Positions 15,590-46,547 of a DNA stretch of 64,000 nucleotides are shown here, piece by piece. The notes beneath the pieces were generated by a model. The model searched no databases and was not told the DNA's origin. It saw only the letters and a list, made by a program, of their open reading frames with translations. The DNA is taken from positions 4,030,001 to 4,094,000 of the forward strand of contig NZ_CP059973.1 in assembly GCF_009193295.2 (NCBI RefSeq), in the 5' to 3' direction. Position numbers and translations under genes: made by a program. Position 1 is the stretch's first letter; the number at the start of each line of letters is the position of its first letter. The DNA comes from Bacteroides luhongzhouii (GTDB lineage: Bacteria > Bacteroidota > Bacteroidia > Bacteroidales > Bacteroidaceae).

Positions 15590-15614
15590 TTAATTAACTA
15601 AAAATAATAATACT

Positions 15615-15731
15615 ATGAATGATAAAAACATGATGATTTTTTTATTCTATTGTTTATTGACTTCTTTTTGTTTTTCATGCAGTAGTAATCTGGAGGAGTT
15701 AGAACTTATTTTTAAGAAATCAAGATTATAA
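15615..15731 (+). CDS. 38-residue lipoprotein-like ORF, possible gene remnant
   Basis: This short ORF starts at the ATG at 15615 and encodes a hydrophobic signal-like segment ending in SFCFSC-SSN, a plausible lipobox at Cys22, followed by only 16 more residues (NLEELELIFKKSRL among them) before a TAA. It sits in line between the paralogous lipoproteins and the DsbD-type gene. It could be a real tiny lipoprotein or the 5' end of a third lipoprotein gene that lost its body. The sequence after the lipobox does not resemble the two upstream paralogs. Confidence 0.4.
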   Translation: MNDKNMMIFLFYCLLTSFCFSCSSNLEELELIFKKSRL

Positions 15732-15747
15732 TTTAGAACTTAGAAAA

Positions 15748-28204: not shown

Positions 28205-28209
28205 TAAAA

Positions 28210-30292: not shown

Positions 30293-30334
30293 TTCTTAAT
30301 CTCGTGTGTCCACTAAATACAAAGAGATTAAGAA
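30293..30334. promoter_or_regulatory. 11-bp inverted repeat in the SusC leader
   Basis: TTCTTAATCTC (30293-30303) and GAGATTAAGAA (30324-30334) form a perfect inverted repeat with a 20-base spacer. It ends 28 bases before the SusC ATG. It could be an operator for a dimeric regulator or an RNA hairpin in the 5' leader. The ECF-dependent promoter should lie just upstream, but I cannot place it. Confidence 0.55.
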
Positions 30335-30362
30335 CCTATTTATAACTTTAAACAAACTAAGT

Positions 30363-33300
30363 ATGAAGAACAGAGTATTGCTTGTATTGTTATTCAGCTT
30401 TGCTGTAAGTCTTGCGGCGTCGGCTCAGAAAATAACAATGAATCTTCAACAAGTCAAGTTGGAGAAAGTCTTTTCGCTCATTACTAAACAGACAGGACTT
30501 ACGGTAGCATATAGCCGTACGATTGTCAATCCCGAACGGATTGTTTCTGTCCAGGCAAAAGACAAAGACCTTTCTAAAGTATTGGATGATTTATTCGCGG
30601 GTACAAATGTAGCTTATGAAATTGGAGAGAAGAAAATATATTTGAAAGCAAAAGAAGCTCCCGTTGCATCACAAGGGAACCAAAAAACAAAGAAAATAAC
30701 GGGAACGGTGACGGATATCAAAGGCGAACCGATAATTGGTGCTAGTGTATTGGTGAAAGGAGCGGGAACAGGTACTGTGACAGATGTAGATGGTAACTTT
30801 ACATTGGATGCTCCGGCAGACGCTCTTCTGGCTGTCAGTTATATCGGTTATAAAACACAGGAAGTAAAGGTGGGGAATAAGAACTCATATTCTATCCAAT
30901 TGCAGGACGATACCGAAGTACTGGATGAAGTCGTAGTAGTTGGTTACGGCGTGCAGAAGAAATCAAGTTTGACAGGTGCCGTTGCTTCCATCTCTTCTCA
31001 GGAAATCAGCAAACAGGTATCATCTAATGTTGCTTCAAGTTTACAGGGGCGTACACCGGGGGTAGACATCGTGCAGCAAGCTGGTGTTGCTGGGGCAGAT
31101 GTAAACATCGTGATTCGCGGTGCCGCTTCTTTTGGCGCTACCGAACCTCTGTATGTTATCGACGGAGCATTCAGTAATGCTGGATTAAGCTCATTGAATC
31201 CCAATGATATTGAATCTATCGAAGTACTGAAAGATGGTGCGGCAGCCGCTATCTACGGTTCACGTGCCGCTAATGGTGTCGTTTTGATTACTACCAAGAA
31301 AGGAAAGTCTGGTAAGCCTGTCATTCAGATAGACGGTTCGTTCGCTTTTCAGAAGACGACTAATATTCCGGAGTTTCTCAATGCGTCGGAATGGAGAGAA
31401 TTTGCCAATATGGTGGCAGATAACAGTGGCTTGCCTCATGCACCGGAGAATGACAATCCCACCAATCCGAACCTGAATACCGACTGGTCAAAAGAATGGA
31501 TACAGTTTGCCCCGGTATGGAACTTAAATGCCAGTATCGCAGGTGGTGGGGACAACTCTACTTTCAGCACAAGCCTTGGTTATCTTGACCAAACCGGTAT
31601 GACGATTTATTCAGATTATAAACGCTATAACTTCCGCCTGAATACCTCCTATAAAAAAGGACGTTTCTCATTTTCCGAAACCCTCGGACTGACGCATAAG
31701 GATAAAACTCCTACAACAGCTTTCAACATAGCTTTACCAACGTTACCTATTTATGATGAACAAGGGCGGTTTACCTCCGGTGGTCCTGATTATTACATCA
31801 ACCCCGAAGATGGCAAGGCGCAGAATAAGATAGCCCCGTTACATTATACAGACCAGTTTAATAAAGTGACAGATTTAATCGGCTCTTTGAATGCCCAACT
31901 GGATATTTGGGGCGGCTTAAAATACAAATTATCGTTAAGTGGAAATTATAGCAATAAGCATAATTACACCCATACCCCCGAGTACTATACAAAGTGGAAC
32001 TCGGATGGAACTCCCGATAAAGATTACGGCAACACACGTAACAGTGTATCGGAAACAAGAGGTGAAGAGTTCACTTATACGATTGATAACTTGCTGACTT
32101 ACAACAAGACATTTAACCGTCACTCAATAGACGCTTTATTAGGAACAAGCTGGATGAGAGAATACTATCGCTACATGACCAACTCTACCATTAACGATTT
32201 AGGAGGAACGGACATTACCGGATTCCAAAATGAGGATGGCAAAATTTCGGCAGGCGACAGTAATGCAGCATTGCTCTCTTTCTTCGCCCGTGTGAACTAC
32301 GATTATGATAATAAATATCTGCTATCCTTAAGTATCCGCCGGGATGAATCTTCCAAATTCCATAAAGACAATAGAGTAGGTTACTTCCCTTCTGTCTCCG
32401 TCGGATGGAATGTGCACCAGGAAAAATGGTTCCAAAATCCTGTAATGAGCAAATTGAAGTTCAGAGCTAGCTACGGTGAGTTGGGTGCCAACTTCCTCAA
32501 CCCTTATAATTTTGACGCGATAGCTTATGGACCTATTCCCTACACAGTAGGCGGTGAACGTTATGTGACAGGACGCGCAGCCTATCTGAAATCGAAAGAT
32601 TTGAAATGGGAAACTGCCAAAACCACAGATATTGGTATCGAACTGGGTTTCTTTAATAACGATTTGACCTTATCACTAGACTATTTCGTGAAAAAGAACG
32701 TAGATTTGTTGGCACAGATTGACTTGAACTTGTCTTCCGGACAGATCTTTGAAATCAACAGCTCACGTGAAAAACCATACGTCAATACAGCCTCCGTAAA
32801 AAACACAGGATGGGAGTTTATGATGAATTACAGGAAACAATTGACGAAAGACTTCCATATAGATGCGACATTCAATATCGCAACGTTGAAGAATAAAGTA
32901 TTATCACTGGGGGAAAACGTACAGCCGATTACTTCCGGCGCAATGTCCAGCTACTTTAACGATGCCCCCTCCATTACCATGCCGGGAGAAGCAATCGGTT
33001 CATTCTATGGTTATAAAATTGACGGTTTTGATGCGGAAGGAAATTTCATTTTCGCGGATACGGACAAGAATGGAGTAGTCAATGCAAATGATAAAGTCAT
33101 TCTGGGCAACCCTATCCCTGATTTTACATACGGTTTGAACATCAACATGGAATACAAGGACTTTGATTTGACTGTCTTTTTCCAGGGAGTGCAGGGAAAT
33201 GATATATTCAACCAGAAAAAGTACACCTATTATTTTGATTATTCCAACAACGTGGTCAAAGAGGCTATGAATGGATGGACGAAAACAAATAGAAATACAG

Positions 33301-33611
33301 GAATCCCTATTATGAAAACCCAAAACACAAGTGGCGGAAACTCCCTGCCGAGTGAATTTTATATTGAAGATGGTTCTTATTTACGTCTGAAAAACCTTCA
33401 GTTAGGCTATTCACTGCCTAAAAAGTGGTTGGAAGCAATCCGGTTTAATAAACTGCGTGTTTATGCAGGCGTACAAAATCTGTTTACGTTGACCAAATAC
33501 TCCGGTTATGACCCGGAAGTTAGTTCAAATGTATTGTTCTCACGTGGCATTGACGTCAGTTCATATCCTAATGCCCGGACATTCACTTTTGGTTTTAACG
33601 CTTCATTCTGA
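30363..33611 (+). CDS. SusC-like TonB-dependent transporter with STN signalling domain
   Basis: This is a 1082-residue outer-membrane transporter. I start it at the ATG at 30363, which gives the signal peptide MKNRVLLVLLFSFAVSLAAS; an in-frame GTG at 30306 would add 19 residues that spoil it. Domains in order are: STN (about 24-95, MNLQQVKLEKVFSLITKQTG), a carboxypeptidase-regulatory-like beta-sandwich (about 110-180, TGTVTDIKGEPIIGASVLVK), a TonB-box-like segment near 186-196 (LDEVVVVGYG), plug (about 200-310) and a 22-strand barrel ending in the aromatic FNASF. The STN domain is what connects such transporters to a FecR anti-sigma factor, here encoded at 28210. With SusD it imports oligosaccharide or sugar acid to the periplasm. 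Confidence 0.95.
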   Translation: MKNRVLLVLLFSFAVSLAASAQKITMNLQQVKLEKVFSLITKQTGLTVAYSRTIVNPERIVSVQAKDKDLSKVLDDLFAGTNVAYEIGEKKIYLKAKEAPVASQGNQKTKKITGTVTDIKGEPIIGASVLVKGAGTGTVTDVDGNFTLDAPADALLAVSYIGYKTQEVKVGNKNSYSIQLQDDTEVLDEVVVVGYGVQKKSSLTGAVASISSQEISKQVSSNVASSLQGRTPGVDIVQQAGVAGADVNIVIRGAASFGATEPLYVIDGAFSNAGLSSLNPNDIESIEVLKDGAAAAIYGSRAANGVVLITTKKGKSGKPVIQIDGSFAFQKTTNIPEFLNASEWREFANMVADNSGLPHAPENDNPTNPNLNTDWSKEWIQFAPVWNLNASIAGGGDNSTFSTSLGYLDQTGMTIYSDYKRYNFRLNTSYKKGRFSFSETLGLTHKDKTPTTAFNIALPTLPIYDEQGRFTSGGPDYYINPEDGKAQNKIAPLHYTDQFNKVTDLIGSLNAQLDIWGGLKYKLSLSGNYSNKHNYTHTPEYYTKWNSDGTPDKDYGNTRNSVSETRGEEFTYTIDNLLTYNKTFNRHSIDALLGTSWMREYYRYMTNSTINDLGGTDITGFQNEDGKISAGDSNAALLSFFARVNYDYDNKYLLSLSIRRDESSKFHKDNRVGYFPSVSVGWNVHQEKWFQNPVMSKLKFRASYGELGANFLNPYNFDAIAYGPIPYTVGGERYVTGRAAYLKSKDLKWETAKTTDIGIELGFFNNDLTLSLDYFVKKNVDLLAQIDLNLSSGQIFEINSSREKPYVNTASVKNTGWEFMMNYRKQLTKDFHIDATFNIATLKNKVLSLGENVQPITSGAMSSYFNDAPSITMPGEAIGSFYGYKIDGFDAEGNFIFADTDKNGVVNANDKVILGNPIPDFTYGLNINMEYKDFDLTVFFQGVQGNDIFNQKKYTYYFDYSNNVVKEAMNGWTKTNRNTGIPIMKTQNTSGGNSLPSEFYIEDGSYLRLKNLQLGYSLPKKWLEAIRFNKLRVYAGVQNLFTLTKYSGYDPEVSSNVLFSRGIDVSSYPNARTFTFGFNASF

Positions 33612-33622
33612 TAACTAAAAAT

Positions 33623-35380
33623 ATGATTAATATGAAAAACTATAAGAAAATATATGCCGCATTTATCTTGGTAGGCGGTTTGATATTACACGGATGCAAC
33701 GGCATCTTTGATGATCTGGCTATTAATCCGAATCAACCGAGTATGGGAGCTTATTTCACCAGTCCGTCCGCTGTAAATGACGCAGTGATGACCATGTACG
33801 GATATATGTCTACGCAACGCTGCCTGGGAGCTTCCGGCTCTAAGACAACGATAATCCGCTCCGACGAGGCATCGTCCAATTCGGATTATGGAAAGCCGGG
33901 TATGTTTGGTGCCGACTTGAATGCCAGTTATTACACTATAGAGCAACCTTATACATTGATGTACACCACTGCTTCTCAAGCATCCTACATTATTGAAACC
34001 GCCCCGTCTGTTGATTTCAGCGGTAATGAGGAACTGCGGAACGCATACATGGGGGAAGCCTATTTTTGGAGGGCATTTGCGCATTATTACCTATTGATTA
34101 ATTTCCGGAATATATCTCCCATCAGACAGATGCCACGCAATGGCGATGACTATGTCCGTCCCTTGGAAAAACCTGCTGCCGTATGGAATTTTATTCAAGA
34201 AGACCTAGCACACGCGAAAGAACTGTTGCCCGTGAAGGGATATTGGGACAGCAAGAATGCCGGTCGTGTGACAAAAGCTTCCGCAGCCGCCTTATTGGGA
34301 AAAGCTTACCTCTACCGTAGTGGAATCGAGCAATATTATGGTGAAGACAAGACCACATTTTACAGTGAAGCTGCCAAAGAATTTGCCGATATTATAGACG
34401 GAAAGTACGGAACTTATGACCTGACTAAAAATTATGCCGATAATTTTGATGTCGCTCATGAAAATAACGAAGAATCAATCCTTGAATTTCAATTCTTGGG
34501 CGATGTCGATAATGCAGGATTCAATCCGGGGCTTGCCACTTCCGGTTTGGCGTTCGATTCGCGTGGATTGATGTTGCCGGGAGCGGGAGTAGGCTATGAA
34601 GGCGTAGTACATAACTGGCTTTATAACGCGTTTGTGAATTCGATAGACAAGGACGGCTATACGGATATCCGGATGTTCTCCACAATGATATTCAATGATT
34701 TGGACGCGAGCATTCATTTGAGAAATGACGCAGGCGGCAATCCGATACGTTTGAAAGGTCCCGGCGGCTATAAATGGGAAGAACTTTATCCGGCAAAGAA
34801 TGGAAAAGAGGGATTCGCCACCGTATCCAATCCTTTGGCACATCCATTCAAAGCAGGTATCAGGAAAGGGATTGATTGTTCCATGCCTACACAAACGGAA
34901 GCGGACGGAACTCCCAAACTGGTCGGTGTAGGTGCAGGCGTCAAGGAGTATGTGTATAATCAACCCCGTGCCCATGGAGTGAACTGGCGGTATATTCGTT
35001 ATGCCGATGTGTTGATGATGTATGCGGAAGCCGTTGTCAGTGGTGGTACGCAAGCATCGGACATGACTCCCTTGCAGGCAGTAAACAAAGTACGCGGACG
35101 TGCCAACATGAGCGAACTCCCTTCCGTAACCATGGCTGATATTCAAAATGAAAGAATCCTGGAATTTGCCTTGGAAGGGCATCGTTTCTATGATTTGCTC
35201 CGTTGGGGCAAGCTAGCCAGCCGTTTTACGGAGTTGCAGGAATCCGACCCTAACTTCAAGAAGTTCATATCGGCAGATGACTTTAAAGGATTCGTCACCA
35301 ATAAGCACGAATGGTTGCCGATTCCTATCAATGAAGTGAATTCTAACCCATATATCACAGAAAATAATCCGGGATATTAA
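33623..35380 (+). CDS. SusD-like surface lipoprotein
   Basis: This 585-residue lipoprotein is the SusD partner of the SusC encoded 11 bases upstream. The signal peptide ends in the lipobox LILHGC followed by NGIFDDLA. Family signs are AFWRAFAHYYLLINF in the TPR-like part, RYADVLMMYAEAV, ERILEFALEGHRFYDLLRWG and the terminal NPGY. It binds the substrate at the cell surface. The N-terminal Met at 33623 and a second at 33632 are both possible starts. Its ligand is not readable from sequence; the downstream catabolic genes suggest sialic acid or a sialylated glycan. Confidence 0.94.
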   Translation: MINMKNYKKIYAAFILVGGLILHGCNGIFDDLAINPNQPSMGAYFTSPSAVNDAVMTMYGYMSTQRCLGASGSKTTIIRSDEASSNSDYGKPGMFGADLNASYYTIEQPYTLMYTTASQASYIIETAPSVDFSGNEELRNAYMGEAYFWRAFAHYYLLINFRNISPIRQMPRNGDDYVRPLEKPAAVWNFIQEDLAHAKELLPVKGYWDSKNAGRVTKASAAALLGKAYLYRSGIEQYYGEDKTTFYSEAAKEFADIIDGKYGTYDLTKNYADNFDVAHENNEESILEFQFLGDVDNAGFNPGLATSGLAFDSRGLMLPGAGVGYEGVVHNWLYNAFVNSIDKDGYTDIRMFSTMIFNDLDASIHLRNDAGGNPIRLKGPGGYKWEELYPAKNGKEGFATVSNPLAHPFKAGIRKGIDCSMPTQTEADGTPKLVGVGAGVKEYVYNQPRAHGVNWRYIRYADVLMMYAEAVVSGGTQASDMTPLQAVNKVRGRANMSELPSVTMADIQNERILEFALEGHRFYDLLRWGKLASRFTELQESDPNFKKFISADDFKGFVTNKHEWLPIPINEVNSNPYITENNPGY

Positions 35381-35396: not shown

Positions 35397-37079
35397 ATGA
35401 TAAAAATGAAAAATATTGCGGTACTACTGTTCTGTTTGGTAGTACCGGGCATAACTATTGCCCAAACAGAAGTGCTTTACAATGGCATACACCTGCCTGA
35501 ACAATGGCCGCCCCGCTATGCGGAGCCACAAAAAGCACAAGATATGCCGATACCCTATCTTAAACAAAAGCCGGGAGTAATCCCGGTAAATGTAGGGCGG
35601 CAACTGTTTGTTGATTCCTTTCTGATTGCAGAAACCAATTTGGACAGAGTGATTCATACTCCCCGGTTTTACGAAGGAAATCCGGTACTCGAACCTGACA
35701 AGGAATGGGAAAAGACAACCGAAGGCGGACTCTACGCAGCACCTTTCAGTGACGGGATATGGTATGATGAAAAAGACCGGAAGTTCAAAATGTGGTACTT
35801 GGCAGGTGCAGGTGTCCTTCATAAAGGAGATAATCAGACCTTTTATACCGGATACGCAGAATCGGAAGACGGCAAGCACTGGACAAAACCTGTACTGGAT
35901 ATTTGGAACCAAACCAATATTGTAGATACCTGCAATCGTGACGCAGCTACTATTTGGCTGGACAAACAGGAGAAAGACCCGTCCAAACGCTACAAGATGT
36001 TCAATGTCGAACGCCGCCCCACCGACCGCAGATGGCAATTTATCTTGAAATACTCGTCAGACGGGATTCATTGGGGAGAGGGAGTAGCCCAGTCCGGTGA
36101 TTTATACGACCGTTCATCGGCATTCTACAATCCGTTCCGTGATGTTTGGGCATTGAGTATGCGTTATGGGACAAAAGTCTCTTCCCGCTCACGCAGCTAT
36201 TTGGAAAATAAAGACCCCGAAGTGGCAGTAAGTTTCGCGCATCGTATCCGAAAAGGAGTGCCCGACAAGAATATGGTCTACTGGTTTACCCCGAGCGATA
36301 AAGAGCCGCGTCATCCGGAATTTCCGGAAGTAGAACCGGGTATTTACAATTTTGATGCCATTGCTTATGAAAGCCTTATGTTAGGACTGTACAGTGTATG
36401 GCAGGGACCGGAAAATGGAGTTTGTGCCAAACTGGGTATTCAGAAAAAGAATGAAATTTTTCTAGGGTATAGCCGTGACGGCTTCCATTTCTACCGTCCT
36501 TCTTTCAAGCCTTTCATGGCAGTAAATGAGACGGAAGGAGCGTGGAACTGGGGCAATATGCAGTCTATCAACGGAGTGCCTTTAATAGTAGGGGATTCAC
36601 TTTATTTCTATTCCAGTGGACGTCTAAAAAACAAGATTATGTGGGATAGCCACACATCTACCGGACTGGCTACTTTGCGCAGAGATGGTTTTGTCTCCAT
36701 GCATGGAGATAAGGACGGGTATCTGTTGACGGAAAAGATCCGTTTTGACGGTAAGCATCTTTTTATCAATGCAGATGTAAAAGGTAGCCTGACTGTAGAA
36801 ATTCTGGATGAAAATGGAAAGCCATTGGAAGGGTTTACCCGGAAAGACTGTGTGCCGGTGAAAAAAACGGATAAGACAAAATTGTTGGTTACATGGAAGA
36901 AACATCAGGATATAGCATCACTCATCGGAAAGGCTGTTCAACTGAAGTTCTATCTGAATAACGCTGATATATATGCATTTTGGATTTCTCCGTGGCAAAC
37001 GGGTGAAAGCCGTGGATATACAAGCGGCGGCGGACCGGGACTGTCACCTGGCGGCATAGATGTTCCTGCAAACCCATAA
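35397..37079 (+). CDS. Secreted beta-propeller glycosidase-like protein, paralog A
   Basis: This 560-residue exported protein has a type I signal peptide (ending GITIAQ, about residue 23). It resembles five-bladed propeller hydrolases of the GH32/GH43 type in blade motifs: SDGIWYDE, FKMWYLAG, YAESEDGKHWTKP, KYSSDGIHWGEG and GYSRDGFHFYRP, each a S-x-D-G-x-x-W/F variant. Two further landmarks are VWQGPENGVC and LIVGDSLYFYSSGR. A C-terminal beta-sandwich (about 450-560, FINADVKGSLTVEILDENG to GGGPGLSPGG) is shared with paralogs B and C. An N-terminal block with GIHLPEQWPPR is shared with B only. I know no function for this family. It lies between SusD and sialic-acid catabolic genes. Confidence 0.75.
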   Translation: MIKMKNIAVLLFCLVVPGITIAQTEVLYNGIHLPEQWPPRYAEPQKAQDMPIPYLKQKPGVIPVNVGRQLFVDSFLIAETNLDRVIHTPRFYEGNPVLEPDKEWEKTTEGGLYAAPFSDGIWYDEKDRKFKMWYLAGAGVLHKGDNQTFYTGYAESEDGKHWTKPVLDIWNQTNIVDTCNRDAATIWLDKQEKDPSKRYKMFNVERRPTDRRWQFILKYSSDGIHWGEGVAQSGDLYDRSSAFYNPFRDVWALSMRYGTKVSSRSRSYLENKDPEVAVSFAHRIRKGVPDKNMVYWFTPSDKEPRHPEFPEVEPGIYNFDAIAYESLMLGLYSVWQGPENGVCAKLGIQKKNEIFLGYSRDGFHFYRPSFKPFMAVNETEGAWNWGNMQSINGVPLIVGDSLYFYSSGRLKNKIMWDSHTSTGLATLRRDGFVSMHGDKDGYLLTEKIRFDGKHLFINADVKGSLTVEILDENGKPLEGFTRKDCVPVKKTDKTKLLVTWKKHQDIASLIGKAVQLKFYLNNADIYAFWISPWQTGESRGYTSGGGPGLSPGGIDVPANP

Positions 37080-37086
37080 AAGATAA

Positions 37087-38805
37087 ATGAGTATGAAACG
37101 TTTATTCTATACATTACTATTCTGCCTGCCTTGCGTGTTGATAGCTTGCGGTGGCAGTGATGATACTCTGGGTGGAGATGACAATCCCCCGGTAGTGGTT
37201 CCGCCTGACGAAGAGACGGTAGATTCACGGCTACTATATAATGGGATTCGTTTGCCCGAACAGTGGCCGCCGGTACGTTCGTCTTCGTCTGAACTGGAAA
37301 AAGGAATGTCACCCTTTTATCTGTCGAACAAACCTTCTGTTATCAATATTTCGGTAGGACGCCAGTTGTTTGTAGACAATTTCCTGATAGAATCCACCAA
37401 TCTGAAACGTACTTTCTATTATCCTGAATATTATTCGGGCAATCCGATATTGACACCGGAACAGGATTGGGAGAAAACCGGAACAAAAGGTGCGGCATTT
37501 GCCGCTCCTTTCAGCGATGGAGTATGGTACGACGAAAAGGAAGGAAAATACAAAATGTGGTATATGGCAGGCGGCGGTTCTTATGCAACCAATGGAGCGG
37601 GTGTAACTTGTTATGCGGAATCAACAGACGGCATTCGCTGGACAAAACCGACTCTTTCCATTGTAGCCGGAACAAATATCGTTGACTATAACTCAGAACG
37701 TGACGCGTCTGTTATTTGGATGGATAAACAGGAAAGTAATGCTTCGAAAAGATACAAGATGTTTCTGGTTGCCCGTGAATCCGGGAAATGGAGATACCAT
37801 TACAAAACTTCCCCAGACGGCAAAGTCTGGCGTGCCGCAGCTCAATCGGAACCTATTGCCGACCGTTCTACGGTATATAAAAATCCATTCAGAAACGTTT
37901 GGGTTTATAGTATGCGGCATAACGTCCGGGTGAACGCGAATAAGCTGGTACGTGCGAGGGATTATAATGAAAATGCCGACCCGGAAGCCGGAACAAAGAA
38001 AGCGGAAGCATTATTGAGTGCATTCTGGTTCGGCCCATGGGCTAATGAGCAACGCCATACAGACTATCCGAATATAGCACCTGCGATATATAATCAGGAT
38101 GCCACGCCTTATGAAAGCATTATGCTGGGATTCTTCTCCGTTTGGCAAGGGCCGGAAAACGATGTTTGTGCTTCGGACAACGTAATCAAGAGAAATCAAG
38201 TCATGGTAGGATATAGCCGCGACGGTTACAGTTGGTTCCGTGAGGATATGAATCCTTTCCATGCCGTAAATACAACTACCTCGGACGCGTGGAATCAAGG
38301 TAACCTGCAATCCGTAGCCGGAGCACCGTTAATTGTCGGCGATAAACTCTATTTCTATCTGAGCGGTCGTCGTTTGAGAGGTACGCAGGAGATTACCACT
38401 ACCGGACTGGCTATGCTTCGTCGCGACGGGTTTGCTTCCATGAAAGGAACGGGCGAACTGCAAACGCCCTTATTGAAATTTGACGGTTCGTACTTCTTTG
38501 TCAATGCCAATGTCACAGGAGAAATGAAAGTGGAGCTTTTAGATTCCGATAATAAAGTAATCGAAGGATTCTCAAAAGATGAATGTAAAGTCTTGAAAGG
38601 GGATAATGTAAAAGCGAAGATAGAATGGGCTAGAAATGCTTCATTAGCCTCTCTGAAAGACAAACAACTGAAAGTAAAATTCTATATTGATAACGGTGAA
38701 ATATTTGCTTTTTGGATTTCTCCTTCTGCGAATGGGGAGAGTATGGGATATACCGCTGGCGGAGGTCCCGGGCTGAATATTTCCGGAATAGATAAAACCA
38801 ATTAA
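37087..38805 (+). CDS. Beta-propeller glycosidase-like lipoprotein, paralog B
   Basis: This is a 572-residue paralog of the proteins at 35397 and 40689, but made as a lipoprotein: lipobox VLIAC, followed by GGSDDTLGGDD, an acidic stretch typical of surface export. It shares GIRLPEQWPP with paralog A, then blade motifs FSDGVWYDE, YKMWYMAGG, YAESTDGIRWTKP, KTSPDGKVWRAA and GYSRDGYSWFRE, the marker VWQGPENDVC, LIVGDKLYFYLSGR and the C-terminal sandwich ending GGGPGLNISGID. It follows paralog A by 7 bases and precedes the PKD lipoprotein gene by 11. A surface location for B with A and C secreted to the periplasm would allow stepwise attack on one substrate; this is inference. Confidence 0.75.
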   Translation: MSMKRLFYTLLFCLPCVLIACGGSDDTLGGDDNPPVVVPPDEETVDSRLLYNGIRLPEQWPPVRSSSSELEKGMSPFYLSNKPSVINISVGRQLFVDNFLIESTNLKRTFYYPEYYSGNPILTPEQDWEKTGTKGAAFAAPFSDGVWYDEKEGKYKMWYMAGGGSYATNGAGVTCYAESTDGIRWTKPTLSIVAGTNIVDYNSERDASVIWMDKQESNASKRYKMFLVARESGKWRYHYKTSPDGKVWRAAAQSEPIADRSTVYKNPFRNVWVYSMRHNVRVNANKLVRARDYNENADPEAGTKKAEALLSAFWFGPWANEQRHTDYPNIAPAIYNQDATPYESIMLGFFSVWQGPENDVCASDNVIKRNQVMVGYSRDGYSWFREDMNPFHAVNTTTSDAWNQGNLQSVAGAPLIVGDKLYFYLSGRRLRGTQEITTTGLAMLRRDGFASMKGTGELQTPLLKFDGSYFFVNANVTGEMKVELLDSDNKVIEGFSKDECKVLKGDNVKAKIEWARNASLASLKDKQLKVKFYIDNGEIFAFWISPSANGESMGYTAGGGPGLNISGIDKTN

Positions 38806-38816
38806 AAAATCATAGT

Positions 38817-40658
38817 ATGAAAAATTTAGCCTATATTTTATTCTCTTTGTTACTGCTTTGTGTAACATCATGTAAAGAAGAAGATACTATTTATAAAACA
38901 GCCGCGAAAGCTGCTTTTTCGGTGGGTAATGAATATGAAGTGGGAGAAACAGTGACCTTTACGGATGCTACGATCCCGGATGAAGGTACTGTAATTGTAA
39001 CCTATCTATGGGAGTTTGGAGATGAAGGTAAATCAACCTCTACAGAGCAGAGTCCGACATTTATTTTTAAAAAGGATGGGCTTTTCCAAGTTAAACTTAC
39101 TGTTACCGATAATAATGGTTTGAGAGCTACCAGTCAGAAAGAAATAAAAGTAATTAATCCGACAACACCTGATTTTACGTTAGACAAAACTGAATATCAG
39201 ATGGGGGATGTGGTAACTTTTATAGATGCTACAGTTACCAAACCTGGGGTAAATATTACTAGTTATTTGTGGGAATTTGGCGACAAAGACAAATCCACCT
39301 CTACGAAGCAAAATCCGACTTTTGCCTATAATGAAGCAGGGGCATATCCTGTGAAACTTACTGTTACGGATAGCTACGGATTAAAAGCAAGTGTAACAAA
39401 AAATGTGGCTGTATTCGATCCGAGCAAAGCGATTGCCGTACAATGGTTGGCAGTTATGGATGGTTCTGTAACCGGCGGTTCATCTCCCGCACTCTCTTTT
39501 GATGGAACGGCTGTATACATGCTGACTGGTGGAGACGCTACAAATGCCGGCCGTCTGAATGCTTACAATATTTCGGATGGTTCTTCGAAATGGATTCTTG
39601 ATGTTGATAAAGCGATGCAAGACCATCACGACAATGGTAGTGTTGCTGCTGGTGCCAAAGATATTTACGGTAGTCCATCTGTAGGGCGTAATGGTGATAT
39701 CTATTTTATAGTCAGGGATTTGAAGGATGCCGGTGCGGATCGCCGCTTATTTGTTTTTGCTGTGAAAGAAAGTGGAATCGTGAACTGGGCATATGCCGGC
39801 AAAGACGCTAATGTGTATGCCATTACGCCTGCGATTGATGCAAACAGCAATATATATGTTGCGCATAGAAGTAAAAAACTCTGGAAATTGACATCTACGG
39901 GAGACTGGTCTGAATATACTTCTAACAATCTTTTGGGGGCAACCGGTGGTTTATCTGTGTCTAAAGACGGAGTAGTCTATGGATTCGGAAACGGCTCAAC
40001 AGGACTCTTTGCTTATAATACGGTGACAGATACCAATCAATGGATTTATGCGACAGATTTTGGTGGTGCAGGCGATGCTTTCACTGGTGCCTTGAGAAGT
40101 GCGACAGTTACTGTCGGTGCTGATGGTACTCTCTACTCTGTGAAAGATTTAGCGTCAGGAGGAGGGGCAGTCTTCGCTTTGACTCCTGAAAGTGTAGAAA
40201 AATGGGTGTATCCAGTGGCAGGTGCCATATCTGATGGGGGTGTTGTATTGGGTGCGGATGGTACAATTTACGCTAATGGTGGAAAGGCTTTGTCCACTCA
40301 GCCTTCAGCAGGTGTCGTCGCGTTGAATGCCGATGGTAGTTTGAAGTGGCATTATGGAACCACAGAAAATGCGCAGACTGCTCCGCTTGTGGACGACCGT
40401 GGTTATATACATTTCATAACAGCCGATGCCACTTACTATGTATTAAAACCAGATGGAACACTCTTCTCATCATTAAAAATAGGAGATAGCACTATCTCTT
40501 CTCCTGTGATGGATGATAAGGGCAATCTGTATGTAGCAGTAAAGAAAGGGGGAATTTGGCAAATGGTATGTGCTACCTCTAAAGCTACATCTTATGCAAA
40601 AGATTCCGCATGGCCGATGAGAGGACAAAATCCGCAACGAACTGGTTTACAGAAGTAG
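38817..40658 (+). CDS. PKD-repeat / PQQ-like beta-propeller lipoprotein
   Basis: This 613-residue lipoprotein (lipobox VTSC, then KEEDT) has two tandem PKD domains at about residues 28-112 and 116-200 (each with TYLWEFGDEGKSTST or SYLWEFGDKDKSTST and VKLTVTD). They are followed by a PQQ-type propeller from about residue 205 (YNISDGSSKWILDVDKAM, GADGTLYSVKDLA, GADGTIYANGGKAL, LNADGSLKWHYGT). PKD domains usually serve as spacers on surface proteins, and the propeller could bind glycan. Its place among SusC/SusD and the propeller paralogs suits a surface glycan-binding protein. No catalytic site is evident. The C-terminal tail WPMRGQNPQRTGLQK is typical of this propeller type. Confidence 0.83.
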   Translation: MKNLAYILFSLLLLCVTSCKEEDTIYKTAAKAAFSVGNEYEVGETVTFTDATIPDEGTVIVTYLWEFGDEGKSTSTEQSPTFIFKKDGLFQVKLTVTDNNGLRATSQKEIKVINPTTPDFTLDKTEYQMGDVVTFIDATVTKPGVNITSYLWEFGDKDKSTSTKQNPTFAYNEAGAYPVKLTVTDSYGLKASVTKNVAVFDPSKAIAVQWLAVMDGSVTGGSSPALSFDGTAVYMLTGGDATNAGRLNAYNISDGSSKWILDVDKAMQDHHDNGSVAAGAKDIYGSPSVGRNGDIYFIVRDLKDAGADRRLFVFAVKESGIVNWAYAGKDANVYAITPAIDANSNIYVAHRSKKLWKLTSTGDWSEYTSNNLLGATGGLSVSKDGVVYGFGNGSTGLFAYNTVTDTNQWIYATDFGGAGDAFTGALRSATVTVGADGTLYSVKDLASGGGAVFALTPESVEKWVYPVAGAISDGGVVLGADGTIYANGGKALSTQPSAGVVALNADGSLKWHYGTTENAQTAPLVDDRGYIHFITADATYYVLKPDGTLFSSLKIGDSTISSPVMDDKGNLYVAVKKGGIWQMVCATSKATSYAKDSAWPMRGQNPQRTGLQK

Positions 40659-40688
40659 TTTTAGTATAATCAAATTGATCATAAAAAT

Positions 40689-42236
40689 ATGAAACGGATT
40701 TACTCTGCCATCGTCTTCTTCTTTTTCGTTTATTGTTTATTTGCCCAGAATGGACGCATATTGATTGCAAATCATTCTTGTGACAATGCCGGAAATGTGG
40801 AACGCGTATTTCATTTGCCCGTCTATTATTCAGGCAATCCTGTTTTGAAAGCTGATAAAAAATGGGAATTGAATATAAATGGCGACCCTTATGCCGCTCC
40901 TTTCAGTGGTGGTGTATGGTATGATGAAGAAGAGTATAAATTCAAGATGTGGTATTCTGCCGGTGGCGGGAAGTTATTAGGACTCGTCACTTGCTATGCA
41001 GAGTCGTCCGACGGGAAAGTCTGGATAAAACCGGAGTTAGACGTTGTTCCGGGTACTAATATTGTAGATACATTAGAACATGATTGCGTTTCCGTATTGC
41101 TTGATAAATTTGAGAAAGACCGGACGAAGCGTTATAAAATGTTTGTTGTAGAATTTAATAATCGCTTCACGGTCAGTATGAAACTCAAATATTCTTCTGA
41201 CGGAATCCATTGGAGTGCGCCGAAGGCTCTTTCGGGAGAATTGTATGACCGTTGTGCGGCTTATTACGACCCGTTTCGCAAAAAATATGTCCTGTCATTG
41301 AAAACCATAAACGGAGTGTATAGGCGTTCACGCAATTATTTGGAACATGAAGACCCGGAAATGCTGGTTAGCCTGGCACATAGGATATATGACAACAAGA
41401 GCGATAAGTTTATCCGATATTGGTTTAATGCTGATGAGGATGACCCGCGTCATCCTCAATTTCCCGGACTGCGTCCGCAGATATACAATCATGAAGCAAT
41501 GCCGTATGAAGGCTGTATGCTAGGCTACTTCACCGTTTGGCAGGGACCGGAGAACAATGTTTGCGACAGCCTGAATATTCAAAAAAGAAATGAAGTCCTG
41601 ATAGGTTGGAGCAAAGACGGTTTTCATTGGAACCGGGAAAACAAGAAACCATTTCTACCTGTCAGTGAGGACTTTCATGCATGGAATGCAGGTAATGTAC
41701 AGTCTACTGGGGGGAACCCTCTGATAGTCGGAGACTCTCTTTACTTTTATGTCAGCGGACGCTATAACAGCAAGCCGAAACATGATTCCAACTTTGCCAC
41801 AGGGCTTGCGATGCTTCGTCGTGACGGCTTTGTCTCTATGCGGGCAGGAAAAAAGGAAGGATATGTAGAAATTAAAACCCAGATTCCGGCAAACGGGAAC
41901 TATTTGTTTGTAAATGCTGATGTGAAAGGGACTTTGGCAGTAGAAGTGCTGAATGATAACGGGCAACCCATAGAAGGATTCACAAAAAGAGACTGCATAT
42001 TAATGAAGAAGTCGGATAAAACGAAACAGATGATTTCATGGAAAAAACATCTGGACGTAACATCACTGATTGGGAAAACAGTCAGGTTCAAGTTTTATCT
42101 GAATCAGGCGGATATCTATGCATTTTGGATTTCGGCATGGCAAACGGGCGAAAGCGGTGGATATACAGGCGGTGGAGGACCGGGACTATCCGGTAAAGGT
42201 ATAGATACCCTTATGGATAAATTGAAAAATAACTAA
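40689..42236 (+). CDS. Secreted beta-propeller glycosidase-like protein, paralog C
   Basis: This 515-residue secreted protein (signal peptide ending CLFAQ, about residue 20) is the shortest of the three paralogs because it lacks the N-terminal LPEQWPP block of A and B. The shared core is intact: FSGGVWYDE, FKMWYSAGG, YAESSDGKVWIKP, KYSSDGIHWSAP, GWSKDGFHWNRE, VWQGPENNVC, LIVGDSLYFYVSGR and TGLAMLRRDGFVSM. The C-terminal sandwich (FVNADVKGTLAVEVL to GGGPGLSGKG) is closest to paralog A. It immediately precedes the sialic-acid lyase gene (30 bases), which makes it the paralog most tightly connected to catabolism. Family and reaction are unknown to me. Confidence 0.75.
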   Translation: MKRIYSAIVFFFFVYCLFAQNGRILIANHSCDNAGNVERVFHLPVYYSGNPVLKADKKWELNINGDPYAAPFSGGVWYDEEEYKFKMWYSAGGGKLLGLVTCYAESSDGKVWIKPELDVVPGTNIVDTLEHDCVSVLLDKFEKDRTKRYKMFVVEFNNRFTVSMKLKYSSDGIHWSAPKALSGELYDRCAAYYDPFRKKYVLSLKTINGVYRRSRNYLEHEDPEMLVSLAHRIYDNKSDKFIRYWFNADEDDPRHPQFPGLRPQIYNHEAMPYEGCMLGYFTVWQGPENNVCDSLNIQKRNEVLIGWSKDGFHWNRENKKPFLPVSEDFHAWNAGNVQSTGGNPLIVGDSLYFYVSGRYNSKPKHDSNFATGLAMLRRDGFVSMRAGKKEGYVEIKTQIPANGNYLFVNADVKGTLAVEVLNDNGQPIEGFTKRDCILMKKSDKTKQMISWKKHLDVTSLIGKTVRFKFYLNQADIYAFWISAWQTGESGGYTGGGGPGLSGKGIDTLMDKLKNN

Positions 42237-42266: not shown

Positions 42267-43184
42267 ATGGAAAAGATTATAGGATTAATCAATGCTCCTT
42301 TTACTCCGTTTTATGAAAATGGAGAAGTAAATTATGAACCAATCGAAGCCTATGCGAAGCTACTTGTAAAAAATGGCTTGAAAGGTGTTTTCATCAACGG
42401 TTCTTCAGGGGAAGGGTATATGTTGACTGATGAAGAACGGATGAAGTTGGCGGAACGTTGGATGGAAGTTGCACCAGATGGTTTCAAAGTAATTGTTCAC
42501 GTGGGAAGTTGCTGCGTAAAGTCGAGCCGGATGCTGGCGGAGCATGCGCAGAAAATCGGAGCTTGGGGAATTGGCGCAATGGCTCCGCCTTTCCCGAAAA
42601 TCGGACGAATAGAAGAACTGGTAAAGTATTGTGAGGAGATTGCTGCCGGAGCACCGGAACTGCCTTTCTATTATTATCACATTCCTGCATTCAATGGTGC
42701 ATTCTTACCAATGCTTGCTTTCCTGAAAGCTGTTGAGAACCGTATCCCCAATTTTGCGGGAATCAAATACACCTTCGAAAGCCTGTATGAATACAATCAA
42801 TGCCGTTTGTATAAAGATGGCAAGTTCGATATGCTTCACGGACAGGATGAAACCATTCTTCCATGTTTGGCAATGGGAGGAGCACAAGGCGGAATCGGCG
42901 GAACAACCAATTATAATGGTATAAATTTGGTCGGTATCATTGATGCCTGGAAAGCCGGTAACTTGGAAAAAGCCCGTGAATTGCAAAACTTCTCTCAGGA
43001 AGTGATTAACGTAATCTGCCATTTCCGTGGAAATATTGTTGGCGGCAAACGTATCATGAAGCTTATCGGACTTGATTTGGGCGGTAACCGTACTCCTTTC
43101 CAGAACATGATCGATGACGAAGAAAAGCAGATGAAAGCGGAACTGGAAGAAATCCGGTTCTTTGAACGTTGCAATAAATTCTGA
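42267..43184 (+). CDS. nanA: N-acetylneuraminate lyase (NanA/NanL type)
   Basis: This 305-residue cytoplasmic enzyme of the DHDPS/NAL superfamily should split N-acetylneuraminate to N-acetylmannosamine and pyruvate. Family features are the substrate-carboxylate loop GVFINGSSGEG (near residue 50), the Tyr in YYYHIPAFNG, the Schiff-base Lys K167 in NFAGIKYTFE, and HGQDETILPCLAMGGAQGG, followed by GIGGTTNY. The GIKYT form around the Lys and the HIP motif are characteristic of sialate lyases rather than dihydrodipicolinate synthases. It is followed 12 bases later by an AGE-type epimerase gene, as in the nanLET locus of B. fragilis. A related 2-keto-3-deoxy acid (for example Kdo or Kdn) cannot be ruled out as substrate. 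Confidence 0.87.
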   Translation: MEKIIGLINAPFTPFYENGEVNYEPIEAYAKLLVKNGLKGVFINGSSGEGYMLTDEERMKLAERWMEVAPDGFKVIVHVGSCCVKSSRMLAEHAQKIGAWGIGAMAPPFPKIGRIEELVKYCEEIAAGAPELPFYYYHIPAFNGAFLPMLAFLKAVENRIPNFAGIKYTFESLYEYNQCRLYKDGKFDMLHGQDETILPCLAMGGAQGGIGGTTNYNGINLVGIIDAWKAGNLEKARELQNFSQEVINVICHFRGNIVGGKRIMKLIGLDLGGNRTPFQNMIDDEEKQMKAELEEIRFFERCNKF

Positions 43185-43196
43185 CAGGAGGGAAAT

Positions 43197-44399
43197 ATGA
43201 AGAATATAACTGACTATATACAGAAATGGGCTAATACCTACAAGGATGATATGCTGAATAATATCATGCCCTTTTGGATAAGGTATGGACTGGATACAGT
43301 GAACGGTGGTATATATACTTGTGTAGACCGCGACGGCATATTAATGGATAGCACAAAATCCATTTGGTTTCAAGGACGTTTTGCATTTACCTGTTCCTAT
43401 GCCTACAATCATATAGAAAAGAATCCGGCATGGCTGCAAGCCGCAAAAAGCACACTAGATTTTATAGAGAAGTATTGCTTTGATTCGGAGGGTCGTATGT
43501 ACTTTGAAGTGACAGCAGACGGACGCCCTTTACGCAAGCGTCGTTACATTTTCTCCGAGTCATTTGCAGCCATAGCGATGTCCGAATATTCGATAGCGTC
43601 GGGGGATAAGATGTATGCGGTGAAGGCACTCGAACTATTCAAACGTATGCAGCATTTTCTGCAAATTCCCGGACTGCTTGCTCCCAAATATATGGATACG
43701 CTCCCCATGAAAGGACATTCCATCACCATGATATTGATAAATGTAGCTTCCCGAATCAGGGAAGCTATTCAAGACGAATGTCTGACACGGCAGATTGACG
43801 AATCTATTGCCTGTTTGGAAAAAGATTTCCTGCATCCGGAGTTCAAGGCATTATTGGAAACCGTAGGACCGAACGGAGAATTTATAGACTCCAATATGGG
43901 ACGTACCATCAATCCGGGGCATTGTATCGAAACAGCTTGGTTTTTACTGGAAGAATCCAAGTTCCGGGGAGGGGATAAAAATATAAAAGAATTGGGGCTG
44001 AAGATTCTGGACTGGTCATGGGAGTGGGGCTGGGATAAAGAATTTGGCGGTATTATCAATTTCAAAGATTGCAGGAATCTTCCTTCGCAGGACTATGCGC
44101 AGGATATGAAATTCTGGTGGCCGCAAACAGAAGCAATTATCGCTACCCTGTATGCCTATCTGATGACGAAAGAAGAGAAATACCTGAAGATGCATCAACA
44201 AATCAGCGAGTGGACATATACACATTTCCCGGACAAAAAATACGGAGAGTGGTATGGCTATCTGCATCGGGATGGAACGGTTGCCCAGCCGGCAAAAGGA
44301 AATTTGTTTAAAGGACCTTTTCATATCCCTCGTATGATGACAAAAGGATATATGCTTTGTGAGGAAATAATGTCTGAAATAAAAAAAGAAAAAAGATGA
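43197..44399 (+). CDS. nanE: AGE-family N-acylglucosamine 2-epimerase
   Basis: This 400-residue cytoplasmic enzyme is an alpha/alpha barrel of the N-acylglucosamine 2-epimerase (renin-binding protein) family. It should interconvert N-acetylmannosamine and N-acetylglucosamine. Family motifs are STKSIWFQGRFAFTCSYAYN near the start, FSESFAAIAMSEYS, MIL-rich barrel helices, the His motif NPGHCIETAWFLLEES, and KFWWPQTEAIIATL. In B. fragilis the NanE of the nanLET operon is of this AGE type, unlike the NanE of E. coli; the symbol is used in that sense. A good ribosome site (GGAGGG) precedes the ATG. Its stop overlaps the next start by 4 bases (ATGA), showing translational coupling. Confidence 0.9.
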   Translation: MKNITDYIQKWANTYKDDMLNNIMPFWIRYGLDTVNGGIYTCVDRDGILMDSTKSIWFQGRFAFTCSYAYNHIEKNPAWLQAAKSTLDFIEKYCFDSEGRMYFEVTADGRPLRKRRYIFSESFAAIAMSEYSIASGDKMYAVKALELFKRMQHFLQIPGLLAPKYMDTLPMKGHSITMILINVASRIREAIQDECLTRQIDESIACLEKDFLHPEFKALLETVGPNGEFIDSNMGRTINPGHCIETAWFLLEESKFRGGDKNIKELGLKILDWSWEWGWDKEFGGIINFKDCRNLPSQDYAQDMKFWWPQTEAIIATLYAYLMTKEEKYLKMHQQISEWTYTHFPDKKYGEWYGYLHRDGTVAQPAKGNLFKGPFHIPRMMTKGYMLCEEIMSEIKKEKR

Positions 44400-44842
44400 T
44401 TGTATCCAATTTACAAAATAGCCAACGGGTGGAGAAACTTCACCCGTTGTTCAAGCAGCTTTTCGATTATGTGAAGTCGCACGATCTGTTGCACGAGGAA
44501 CTGGGAACTATTAGACTGGATGGTGATAATCTGATTGTCAATAATATCTATCCCGAATGTATTCCTGAAGGAAAACGTTTATTAGAACTGCATCACGATT
44601 ATATTGATGTGCACATATTGCTTGAAGGCAAAGAAACCATTGGCTGGAAAGCCTTGGAAGAATTAAAAGTGGAAAGGCAAGCTTATGATAAAAAGAGTGA
44701 TTGTGCCCTATATGGTGACGTTCCTACTACTTTCATCAATCTCTTGCCCGGACAATTCGTCATTGTATATCCGGAGGACCCCCATGCTCCGGCTATCGGT
44801 AAAGGCTGGATACGCAAACTGATAGCTAAAGTAAAAGTCTAA
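44396..44842 (+). CDS. YhcH/YjgK/YiaL family protein
   Basis: This 148-residue cytoplasmic protein belongs to the YhcH/YjgK/YiaL (DUF386) beta-barrel family. Metal-binding and family blocks are LELHHDYIDVHILLEGKETI with His and Glu, and VIVYPEDPHAPAIG with Asp and His. In E. coli yhcH lies in the nan operon and is thought to help sialic-acid sugars change anomeric form. The start overlaps the stop of the epimerase gene (ATGA at 44396-44399). The presence of this family next to a lyase and an AGE epimerase strengthens the assignment of the operon to sialic-acid use. Confidence 0.9.
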   Translation: MIVSNLQNSQRVEKLHPLFKQLFDYVKSHDLLHEELGTIRLDGDNLIVNNIYPECIPEGKRLLELHHDYIDVHILLEGKETIGWKALEELKVERQAYDKKSDCALYGDVPTTFINLLPGQFVIVYPEDPHAPAIGKGWIRKLIAKVKV

Positions 44843-44878: not shown

Positions 44879-46114
44879 ATGAAAAATAAAAAAATTTATC
44901 CATGGGTAGTGGTTGCGTTGCTTTGGGTAGTAGCGTTGCTCAACTACATGGATAGACAAATGCTTTCTACAATGCAGGAAGCAATGAAAATAGATATTGT
45001 AGAGTTGACGAAAGCAGAAGCTTTCGGTGCATTAATGGCAGTCTTTCTTTGGATTTACGGCTTTATGAGCCCGGTTGCCGGAATTATTGCAGACAGGCTT
45101 AGTCGTAAATGGTTAATCGTCGGAAGCTTGTTTGTTTGGTCGGCCGTAACATTCCTGATGGGATATGCCACGACGTTTGAGCAATTATATGGTTTGCGTG
45201 CAGTGATGGGGATTAGTGAAGCATTGTATATTCCTTCCGCTCTATCCTTGATAGCGGATTGGCATCAGGACAAATCACGCTCATTAGCAATTGGAGTTCA
45301 CATGACCGGACTGTATGTCGGTCAGGCAATCGGTGGATTTGGAGCTACGGCAGCCGCTGCATTTTCCTGGCAGAGTACTTTTCACTGGTTTGGCATTGTT
45401 GGTATTGCTTATTCTGTGGTTCTTATCTTTTTCCTGCATGAGAATCCTGTCCGAATGAAAATAGAAAAGGTTGTTGCTAATGGCATTAGCAAGGGGAATT
45501 CAATAGGAAAAGGGCTATTACTGTTATTTTCAAATATTTCTTTTTGGGTGATATTATTTTATTTTGCGGCTCCGAGTTTACCGGGGTGGGCTACAAAAAA
45601 CTGGTTGCCAACGCTATTTGCGGAGAATCTGGATATTCCGATGTCACAGGCAGGACCAATATCTACGATTACCATTGCTCTATCTTCATTTGTCGGAGTA
45701 ATATTGGGAGGATTCTTGTCGGATAGATGGGTGCTGAAGAATATCCGCGGACGTGTCTATACAGGGGCAATCGGATTGGGGATGACCATCCCCGCACTGT
45801 TATTGCTAGGTTTCGGACATGGTTTCATTAGCGTAATAGGTGCAGGATTGTTATTCGGCATCGGTTTTGGTATTTTCGATGCCAACAATATGCCTATTCT
45901 ATGCCAGTTCGTTTCTGCTAAATATAGAGGGACGGCATATGGTATTATGAATATGACAGGAGTTTTTGCAGGAGCTGCAGTAACTCAATTATTGGGAAAA
46001 TGGACGGATGGTGGAAGTCTGGGCGAAGGATTTGCTATGCTCAGTATCGTTGTTGCGCTTGCATTAGGGCTACAATTATACTTTTTAAGACCTAAAACGG
46101 ATAATATGGAGTAA
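44879..46114 (+). CDS. nanT: MFS sugar-acid transporter, NanT-like
   Basis: This 411-residue inner-membrane protein has about twelve hydrophobic segments and the MFS signature between helices 2 and 3 (GIIADRLSRKWLIVGS). The first helix reads VVVALLWVVALLNYMDRQM, typical of the anion/sugar-acid branch of MFS. In B. fragilis sialic acid enters through an MFS-type NanT encoded with lyase and epimerase genes, so the same role is inferred here. It follows the YhcH-family gene by 36 bases. A small ORF follows at 46119, then a terminator at 46380. Specificity for N-acetylneuraminate rests on neighbours, not on residues I can read. Confidence 0.82.
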   Translation: MKNKKIYPWVVVALLWVVALLNYMDRQMLSTMQEAMKIDIVELTKAEAFGALMAVFLWIYGFMSPVAGIIADRLSRKWLIVGSLFVWSAVTFLMGYATTFEQLYGLRAVMGISEALYIPSALSLIADWHQDKSRSLAIGVHMTGLYVGQAIGGFGATAAAAFSWQSTFHWFGIVGIAYSVVLIFFLHENPVRMKIEKVVANGISKGNSIGKGLLLLFSNISFWVILFYFAAPSLPGWATKNWLPTLFAENLDIPMSQAGPISTITIALSSFVGVILGGFLSDRWVLKNIRGRVYTGAIGLGMTIPALLLLGFGHGFISVIGAGLLFGIGFGIFDANNMPILCQFVSAKYRGTAYGIMNMTGVFAGAAVTQLLGKWTDGGSLGEGFAMLSIVVALALGLQLYFLRPKTDNME

Positions 46115-46286: not shown

Positions 46287-46379
46287 TAAATAATGAAACA
46301 GTTTATTATAAACGGGTCTTACATTTATAATAAACAATATTCGGGATAATTCACTAAGTAGGTACGAATATATTAAACA

Positions 46380-46415
46380 AAACGAGGTGAAATCTGCATA
46401 GATTTCACCTCGTTT
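46380..46415. terminator. Bidirectional terminator between convergent genes
   Basis: A perfect 15-bp stem (AAACGAGGTGAAATC at 46380-46394 with GATTTCACCTCGTTT at 46401-46415) and a 6-base loop is flanked by A-rich and T-rich sequence on the two sides. It serves the sialic-acid operon on the plus strand and the GNAT gene on the minus strand. Confidence 0.88.
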
Positions 46416-46547
46416 CTATTCTTTTAGAAACATATTTATGTTTCTAAAAAATCTCTTTATGTCTTTATTTTTGTATATATCATATCTGTTGTCAGCTAAT
46501 TGGTTATTACAAATATACGAAATTAAAAGAGGAAAGTCAATAGCTTT

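Follow-up and report, generated by a model that had tools for sequence, protein, structure and literature searches.

How is sialic acid released for a catabolic locus that encodes no GH33 sialidase of its own? The question is raised by a run of genes in Bacteroides luhongzhouii, within a stretch of 64,000 nucleotides (contig NZ_CP059973.1, positions 4,030,001 to 4,094,000 of the forward strand; hereafter the window), in which three related propeller proteins, here termed P1, P2, and P3, are encoded between a SusC/SusD pair and genes for a NanA-type lyase, an N-acylglucosamine 2-epimerase (AGE), a YhcH-family protein, and a transporter of the major facilitator superfamily (MFS). Gene linkage, predicted fold, and residue conservation are what was observed, and from them we infer the bond that is cleaved. 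The Bacteroidota clade of these propellers very probably functions in sialic acid acquisition, and there is about an even chance that P1–P3, members of an unclassified family of propellers that are probably five-bladed, are exo-ketosidases (sialidases) of a new family, the activity that we consider most likely. A more specific proposal, which is somewhat less probable, is that they represent a glycoside hydrolase (GH) family outside GH33, GH156, GH177, and GH181, consisting of a three-enzyme relay in Bacteroidota and a cytoplasmic sialosidase that a Bacillus has adopted into its own nan operon.

The open reading frames (ORFs) of P1 (35397..37079, 560 residues), P2 (37087..38805, 572 residues), and P3 (40689..42236, 515 residues) are all on the forward strand, and their products are 44–56% identical (49–50% for P1-P2, 55–56% for P1-P3, and 44–45% for P2-P3), a likeness that is not due to chance because the E values are ≤3e-126. 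They are paralogs, as the preliminary description of this DNA had stated, and every one of them carries a single copy of each sequence block that it singled out (WQGPEN-x-VC, LIVGD-x-LYFY-x-SGR, and GGGPGL); its five blade motifs of the form S-x-D-G-x-x-W/F, however, reduce on exact counting to three per protein with one RRDGF as a fourth. The division into one lipoprotein and two soluble proteins holds: by a crude rule, P2 has a lipobox with Cys21 followed by GGSDD and is probably located at the cell surface, and P1 and P3 have plain signal peptide-like N termini, P1 being presumably periplasmic. The position of the genes between SusC/SusD and the lyase, AGE, YhcH, and MFS genes was also described correctly, but the trio is not contiguous, as a gene for a protein with PKD domains and PQQ/BamB-like repeats (38817..40658, forward strand; Pfam PKD_4, 1e-28, and PQQ_2, 1.2e-6; lipoprotein-like N terminus by reading), a candidate surface glycan-binding protein, separates P2 from P3.

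The lyase (42267..43184, forward strand, 305 residues) scores 145.9 bits with NF003164 (cut-off 281) and 191 and 190 bits with solved lyases. It retains the Tyr and Lys motifs and the Asp-Glu pair, and Gly replaces the Ser of the GSTYN motif of human NPL, a change that does not by itself point to a different substrate; in locus L040, which has GH33 in the same gene run, the lyase also has Gly at this position. The lyase is present in 37 of 121 Bacteroidaceae genomes, at 77–100% identity in 36 of them and at 41% in the other, and members of its clade lie within about 3 kb of GH33 in G016, G041, and G112. The source annotation calls at least two relatives N-acetylneuraminate lyase and places several others in the dihydrodipicolinate synthase family. 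The epimerase (43197..44399, forward strand) is below the NCBIfam cut-off (NF052547, 329.7 bits; cut-off 600) and is closest to solved N-acylglucosamine 2-epimerases (PDB 8bry, 418 bits). Since the lyase clade adjoins GH33 elsewhere and the epimerase is nearest to N-acylglucosamine 2-epimerases, a sialic acid pathway is indicated, the likely route from these sequences being sialic acid to N-acetylmannosamine (ManNAc) to N-acetylglucosamine (GlcNAc); together the two enzymes point to N-acetylneuraminic acid (Neu5Ac) as the substrate. They are followed on the same strand by the YhcH/DUF386 protein (44396..44842; NanQ-type anomerase family, PF04074, 148 bits) and the MFS transporter (44879..46114; PF07690), whose best NCBIfam match is a D-galactonate transporter, all 25 of the matches listed being below cut-off. 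The arrangement resembles that of the nanLET-type operon of B. fragilis in its lyase, AGE epimerase, and MFS carrier, but it differs in adding the three propellers, YhcH, SusC/D, and the PKD protein in one run and in having no GH33. The lyase and AGE of B. fragilis are listed in PMC10017367.

Related stretches were confirmed in 217 cases, of which 80 were taken to give 74 loci, and the neighbor counts cover all of these (46 from Bacteroidota, 26 from other phyla, and the Bacillota-labelled L048 and L049). A NanA relative of at least 100 bits is present in the flanks compared in 22 of the 46 Bacteroidota loci, one of the two Bacillota-labelled loci, and none of the 26 from other phyla. Operons of three types can be distinguished. 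In the first, represented by 20 Bacteroidota loci in Bacteroides, Phocaeicola, Mediterranea, Muribaculaceae, Alistipes, Parabacteroides, Capnocytophaga, and others, the lyase is accompanied by AGE, in 17 loci by an MFS gene, and mostly by SusC/D; L028 and L038 add NanM near the propeller and L027 a SASA/GDSL protein beside it. Among all 46 Bacteroidota loci, SusC relatives occur in 38, SusD relatives in 33, YhcH in 13, and relatives (at least 100 bits) of the PKD/PQQ-repeat protein, which travels with the propellers, in 18. The second type, in Gramella (L054 and L058), has a different lyase (157–168 bits) and a propeller that lacks a signal peptide, with fucosidases downstream in L054. The third is a nan operon of Bacillus sp. 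FJAT-50079 (L048:7358-18965) with two propellers, one of which (9989-11632), lacking a signal peptide by the crude rule, overlaps the nanA stop by 4 bp, the other (15222-16661) being very remote (62 bits). This operon also encodes two GntR-type regulators (the one scanned has NanR as its best match, 125.7 bits versus a cut-off of 260), a NanA-type lyase (239 bits versus 281), an ATP-binding cassette (ABC) transporter, of which one permease and the binding protein were scanned, NanE (over cut-off), and a ROK kinase with BglK as its best match.

BNR_2, the one sialidase family sought in the L048 genome, gave no match there at E 0.01, and no glycosidase family matched any of the seven L048 ORFs scanned. 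Because the L048 propeller nests among those of Bacteroidota in a tree, on a branch with L033 (Shimodaira-Hasegawa-like approximate likelihood ratio test, SH-aLRT, 99), it may well have been acquired by transfer and recruited to a nan operon of unrelated origin. We give the Bacillus operon more weight than any other single argument, although it comes from one genome: in two samples of Bacilli, the propeller was found in 1 of 34 and 1 of 348 genomes, both times in the same Bacillus sp. FJAT-50079. The family thus recurs beside sialate-lyase genes, as the preliminary description had anticipated, and does so in the differently built nan operons of Gramella and Bacillus as well; among the points that could be tested, nothing emerged that the description had regarded as fatal to its proposal.

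None of the Pfam or NCBIfam families matches P1, P2, or P3 above its cut-off, in agreement with the earlier suggestion of a non-GH33 family, and the GH33 profiles (BNR/Asp-box, PF13088 and PF02012) gave no match with them at E values up to 10. The AlphaFold model of P1 (predicted local distance difference test score, pLDDT, 94.3) is a nearly all-β propeller with few short helices; a fold search with this model found enzymes of the GH130, GH43, and GH62 type over residues 69–435 and also an N-acetylgalactosamine (GalNAc) deacetylase, and the propeller fold that had been read from the sequence is in this way upheld. The count of five blades is drawn by analogy from the families matched, which are five-bladed, and not from coordinates. 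The closest matches in both sequence and fold are GH130 mannoside enzymes, but there is no Pfam GH130 match, the sole PDB profile match is weak (E 6e-4), and the propellers differ from the GH130 mannoside phosphorylases and hydrolases in gene context and in carrying an extra C-terminal sandwich domain. PDB sequence searches with P1 and with the second Bacillus propeller gave nothing informative.

In a family alignment of 58 rows, which leaves out two divergent paralogs from a second locus described below, Arg68, Ser118, Asp182, Arg266, Glu325, Asn384, Asn387, and Gln389 are invariant, Arg239, Arg264, and Glu105 are kept in 57 rows, and Asp238, Tyr268, and Arg409 in 56. At position 320, Asp is found in 53 rows, P1 and P2 included, and Glu in 5, as in P3. 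Conserved residues that bear on the Tyr-Glu nucleophile pair of the GH143 site are Tyr268, Tyr317, and the pair Tyr324-Glu325. A quick tree of 97 rows, with long branches, was built after omission of L036, L059, L065, and L083 as near-duplicates or fragments and of rows of ≤440 residues, ≥720 residues, or ≤300 bits. The P2 clade (18 rows) and the P3 clade (13 rows) each form one side of a branch with an SH-aLRT of 100; both span Bacteroidaceae, Prolixibacteraceae, Muribaculaceae, and Porphyromonadaceae, the P2 clade also including Rikenellaceae, and P1 is placed among the remaining Bacteroidota rows. The set of three is old and has been retained, as would be consistent with distinct tasks.

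GH33 and GH181 sialidases are described as six-bladed (PMC6811678, PMC12018670). The propellers resemble them in having an arginine-rich conserved set and, as it appears, a role in sialic acid acquisition, but differ from them in lacking a BNR Pfam match and probably also in blade number. Amuc_1547 (GH181) is not among the PDB matches of P1 at E 5 or of the profile at E 10, the presence of this chain in the PDB set being unchecked. GH156 and GH177 are listed as non-GH33 sialidase families (PMC13096917). GH156 was rejected as a home for the propellers, being a (β/α)8 barrel (PMC6811678) as opposed to the nearly all-β model. GH177, which is described as NAD-dependent (PMC11701701), was set aside as an improbable home; the model has no nucleotide-binding α/β fold, and the comparison covered no GH177 sequence. 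There is precedent for a five-fold propeller acting on an ulosonic acid in GH143, represented by the BT_1020 hydrolase of 3-deoxy-lyxo-heptulosaric acid (Dha), a 3-deoxy-2-ulosonic acid and sialic acid analogue (PMC6811678), although the substrate of GH143 is rhamnogalacturonan II. Membership of GH143 was rejected on sequence: PF24067 matches 2 of the 58 family members, with a best E of 0.024; in a separate scan it matched none of P1–P3 and gave 12.1 and 11.8 bits with L061 and L063, versus a cut-off of 27. An hhalign comparison of the family with GH143 gave a probability of 19.8% over 36 columns, the GH143 alignment being shallow (12 rows). Neither GH143 nor GH33 is among the 50 best fold matches listed, a listing that does not exclude them. 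GH143 is present in the B. luhongzhouii genome, and the GH143-type protein there (L128/L008, C1:3987871-3988935) also matches the sialidase domain BNR_2 over its cut-off (39.5 bits). The idea that BT0437/BT0438 of B. thetaiotaomicron are members of the propeller family was rejected; BT0438 is listed with a paper on GH89. No title or abstract describing the family was found in the literature searched, most subscription papers and all preprints being outside its scope.

Several findings weigh against the view that the propellers simply stand in for GH33. The B. luhongzhouii genome encodes a 570-residue BNR_2 protein, over the Pfam cut-off and GH33 by reading, about 345 kb from the locus, so that the absence of GH33 that had been noted is true of the locus but not of the genome. 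GH33 adjoins the propeller in L038, L040, and G433, and a GH33-like BNR_2 protein is present in the L061 propeller locus. The view that GH33 is missing and has been replaced by propellers is therefore not sustained, and the GH33 genes beside propellers and in this genome indicate that, in some species, propeller and GH33 are complementary. No lyase is present in the flanks compared in 24 of the 46 Bacteroidota loci, including L044 of P. vulgatus, or in those of the 26 other-phyla loci (at ≥100 bits). For the latter, no dihydrodipicolinate synthase (DHDPS) was among the 25 best of 116 Pfam families listed for 115 neighboring ORFs (≥200 residues, ≤5 kb), one DHDPS-type ORF in L080 (51 bits) being a known case among them, and SASA was found in 2 of the 115; 129 ORFs had qualified, 14 longer ones being omitted and 10 long ones scanned separately. 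Furthermore, L014 has all three propellers and no nan genes in the downstream DNA compared, and G109 has a propeller (with an internal stop) and no lyase match. The lyase is commoner than the propeller both in Bacteroidaceae (37 versus 2 of 121 genomes), where the propeller is absent from 36 of the 37 lyase genomes sampled, and in a set of 395 genomes (19 versus 4). All four propeller genomes of this set carry the lyase; with B. luhongzhouii itself excluded, this is 3 of 3, compared with 18/394 in the background, for which the chance is ~8e-5 by our arithmetic, kinship being ignored. Of these three propeller matches, two are distant (180 and 125 bits), one of the pair being incomplete and interrupted by a stop, and the lyases of the two genomes concerned are located elsewhere in the genome and are 37–39% identical. 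The profile search of the 395 genomes scored at most three candidates per genome and found three of the five copies in the B. luhongzhouii genome.

In the mechanism that we favor, cell-surface sialoglycans would be the target of the lipoprotein P2, SusC/SusD would take in the fragments, and P1 and P3, differing in the linkage or modification that they prefer, would complete the breakdown in the periplasm. The MFS carrier would bring in free sialic acid, whose ring opening YhcH would accelerate; the lyase would yield pyruvate and ManNAc, and AGE would yield GlcNAc. In Bacillus, the propeller without a signal peptide would act in the cytosol on sialosides imported by the ABC transporter. The proposed site comprises Asp182, Asp238, and Asp/Glu320, together with a carboxylate-binding set drawn from Arg239, Arg264, Arg266, and Arg409; these residues are placed at the pocket end by strand register only and not from coordinates. 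Weak profile alignments (13.8 bits in the case of GH130) match the invariant Asp182 with the catalytic Asp of the GH130 EDPR motif and with the Asp of the GH32 RDP motif, of which it may be the counterpart.

The preliminary description allowed that the propellers cleave, trim, or de-esterify sialylated glycans; the link to sialic acid has held, but the three activities are not separable by sequence, and cleavage is preferred tentatively. The GH130 likeness would fit GH130/GH43-like enzymes that trim neutral or amino sugars of sialoglycans, with GH33 elsewhere in the genome freeing the sialic acid, and the GH33-type gene in this genome and those beside propellers in L038, L040, and G433 point in the same direction. 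Such trimming is nevertheless unlikely, as the Bacillus combines propellers with a nan operon in a genome that gave no match to BNR_2, the one sialidase family sought there, its propeller overlaps nanA and has no signal peptide, and none of the seven L048 ORFs scanned matched a glycosidase family. It is also quite improbable that the propellers unmask sialic acids as deacetylases or esterases, by taking off O-acetyl or N-acyl groups. A parallel would be the GalNAc deacetylase of Flavonifractor, FpGalNAcDeAc (6n1a), which has the same fold but is absent from the PDB sequence matches. FpGalNAcDeAc has a metal site with histidines, whereas no His is invariant among the 58 propellers (the best are His87, in 51, and His225, in 50); L027 already has a SASA/GDSL protein beside its propeller, and N-deacetylation would spoil the AGE step. 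The Bacillus form, lacking a signal peptide and encoded between nanA and transporter genes, might instead suggest that the substrate is not a glycoside but sialic acid in free or derived form (mutarotation, lactone, or 2,7-anhydro forms), and NanM mutarotase is also a propeller (PMC10017367). Of the explanations considered, this one has the least to recommend it: L028 and L038 have NanM itself close to the propeller, YhcH is present in 13 of the 46 loci, and three secreted paralogs, one of them a lipoprotein, better fit polymer-facing enzymes.

A broader possibility is compatible with the sialidase assignment, namely that the whole family cleaves 3-deoxy-2-ulosonic acids (Neu5Ac, ketodeoxynonulosonic acid (Kdn), ketodeoxyoctulosonic acid (Kdo), Dha, and others), the sialic acid operons being one branch. 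The same genome has a second propeller locus (L012:3523-16990; C1:809522-822989) with two more paralogs, 41–42% identical to P1, in the order two ribokinase-like genes (the one scanned is PfkB), SusC/D, propeller, DapA/NanA-type lyase, exported-looking YhcH, MFS, and propeller. It has no AGE, and its paralogs differ at positions 320 (Ser/Asn), 335 (His/Leu), and 409 (Phe); for these reasons the family may serve several keto-deoxy acids, and the substrate of the second locus is probably another keto-deoxy sugar acid. The Gramella lyases (L054:4117-5025 and L058:4141-5034) read GSTGD, as opposed to GSSGE in the others, and these loci may serve Kdn if the Asp of GSTGD corresponds to Asp50, a residue on which the Kdn specificity of a Sphingobacterium aldolase is reported to depend (PMC10017367). 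On the other side, the other-phyla loci show no lyase of 100 bits, and we regard the extension to the whole family as doubtful, if less so than trimming. For the window locus, a Kdn-only or Kdo substrate is less likely because AGE is present and the lyase has GSSGE and not GSTGD.

The genes of the locus are arranged in the order SusC, SusD, P1, P2, PKD protein, P3, NanA-type lyase, AGE, YhcH, and MFS, and from SusC through MFS neighboring genes are −4 to 36 bp apart. The SusC-type outer-membrane transporter (30306..33611) and SusD-type lipoprotein (33623..35380), on the forward strand and named by reading, are preceded on that strand by genes for an extracytoplasmic function (ECF)-type sigma factor (27584..28204), relatives of which adjoin the propeller in other loci, and a FecR-type anti-sigma factor (28201..29202), also named by reading. 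A creatininase-family gene (29230..29985, forward strand; PF02633, 189 bits) lies between FecR and SusC; its membership of the operon is doubtful, with a gap of 320 bp to SusC, and among the 74 related loci it is common only to the closest relatives, L014-L016. A terminator-like inverted repeat, a consensus match only, is found 3' of the MFS gene (46379..46416), and a promoter scan gave 43 matches versus 46.7 expected, with no excess. Farther downstream, an 899-residue protein (49845-52544) has no Pfam match at E 1e-5; its gene lies between an opposite-strand sensor kinase-like gene and the gene for a GH2/malectin protein.

Sialic acid caps the glycans of host mucins, and the ability to free it shapes the gut community. 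Because the propeller family recurs in differently built sialic acid operons and three exported relatives are present in one operon here, its sequences make it a good candidate for a new kind of sialic acid-releasing enzyme; its link to sialic acid is well supported, and the bond cleaved is what we infer. If this is correct, a sialidase family for which there is no Pfam model would escape present annotation, sialidase-negative genomes may be miscalled, and a five-bladed propeller would be engaged in a sialic acid task, alongside GH143 on Dha.

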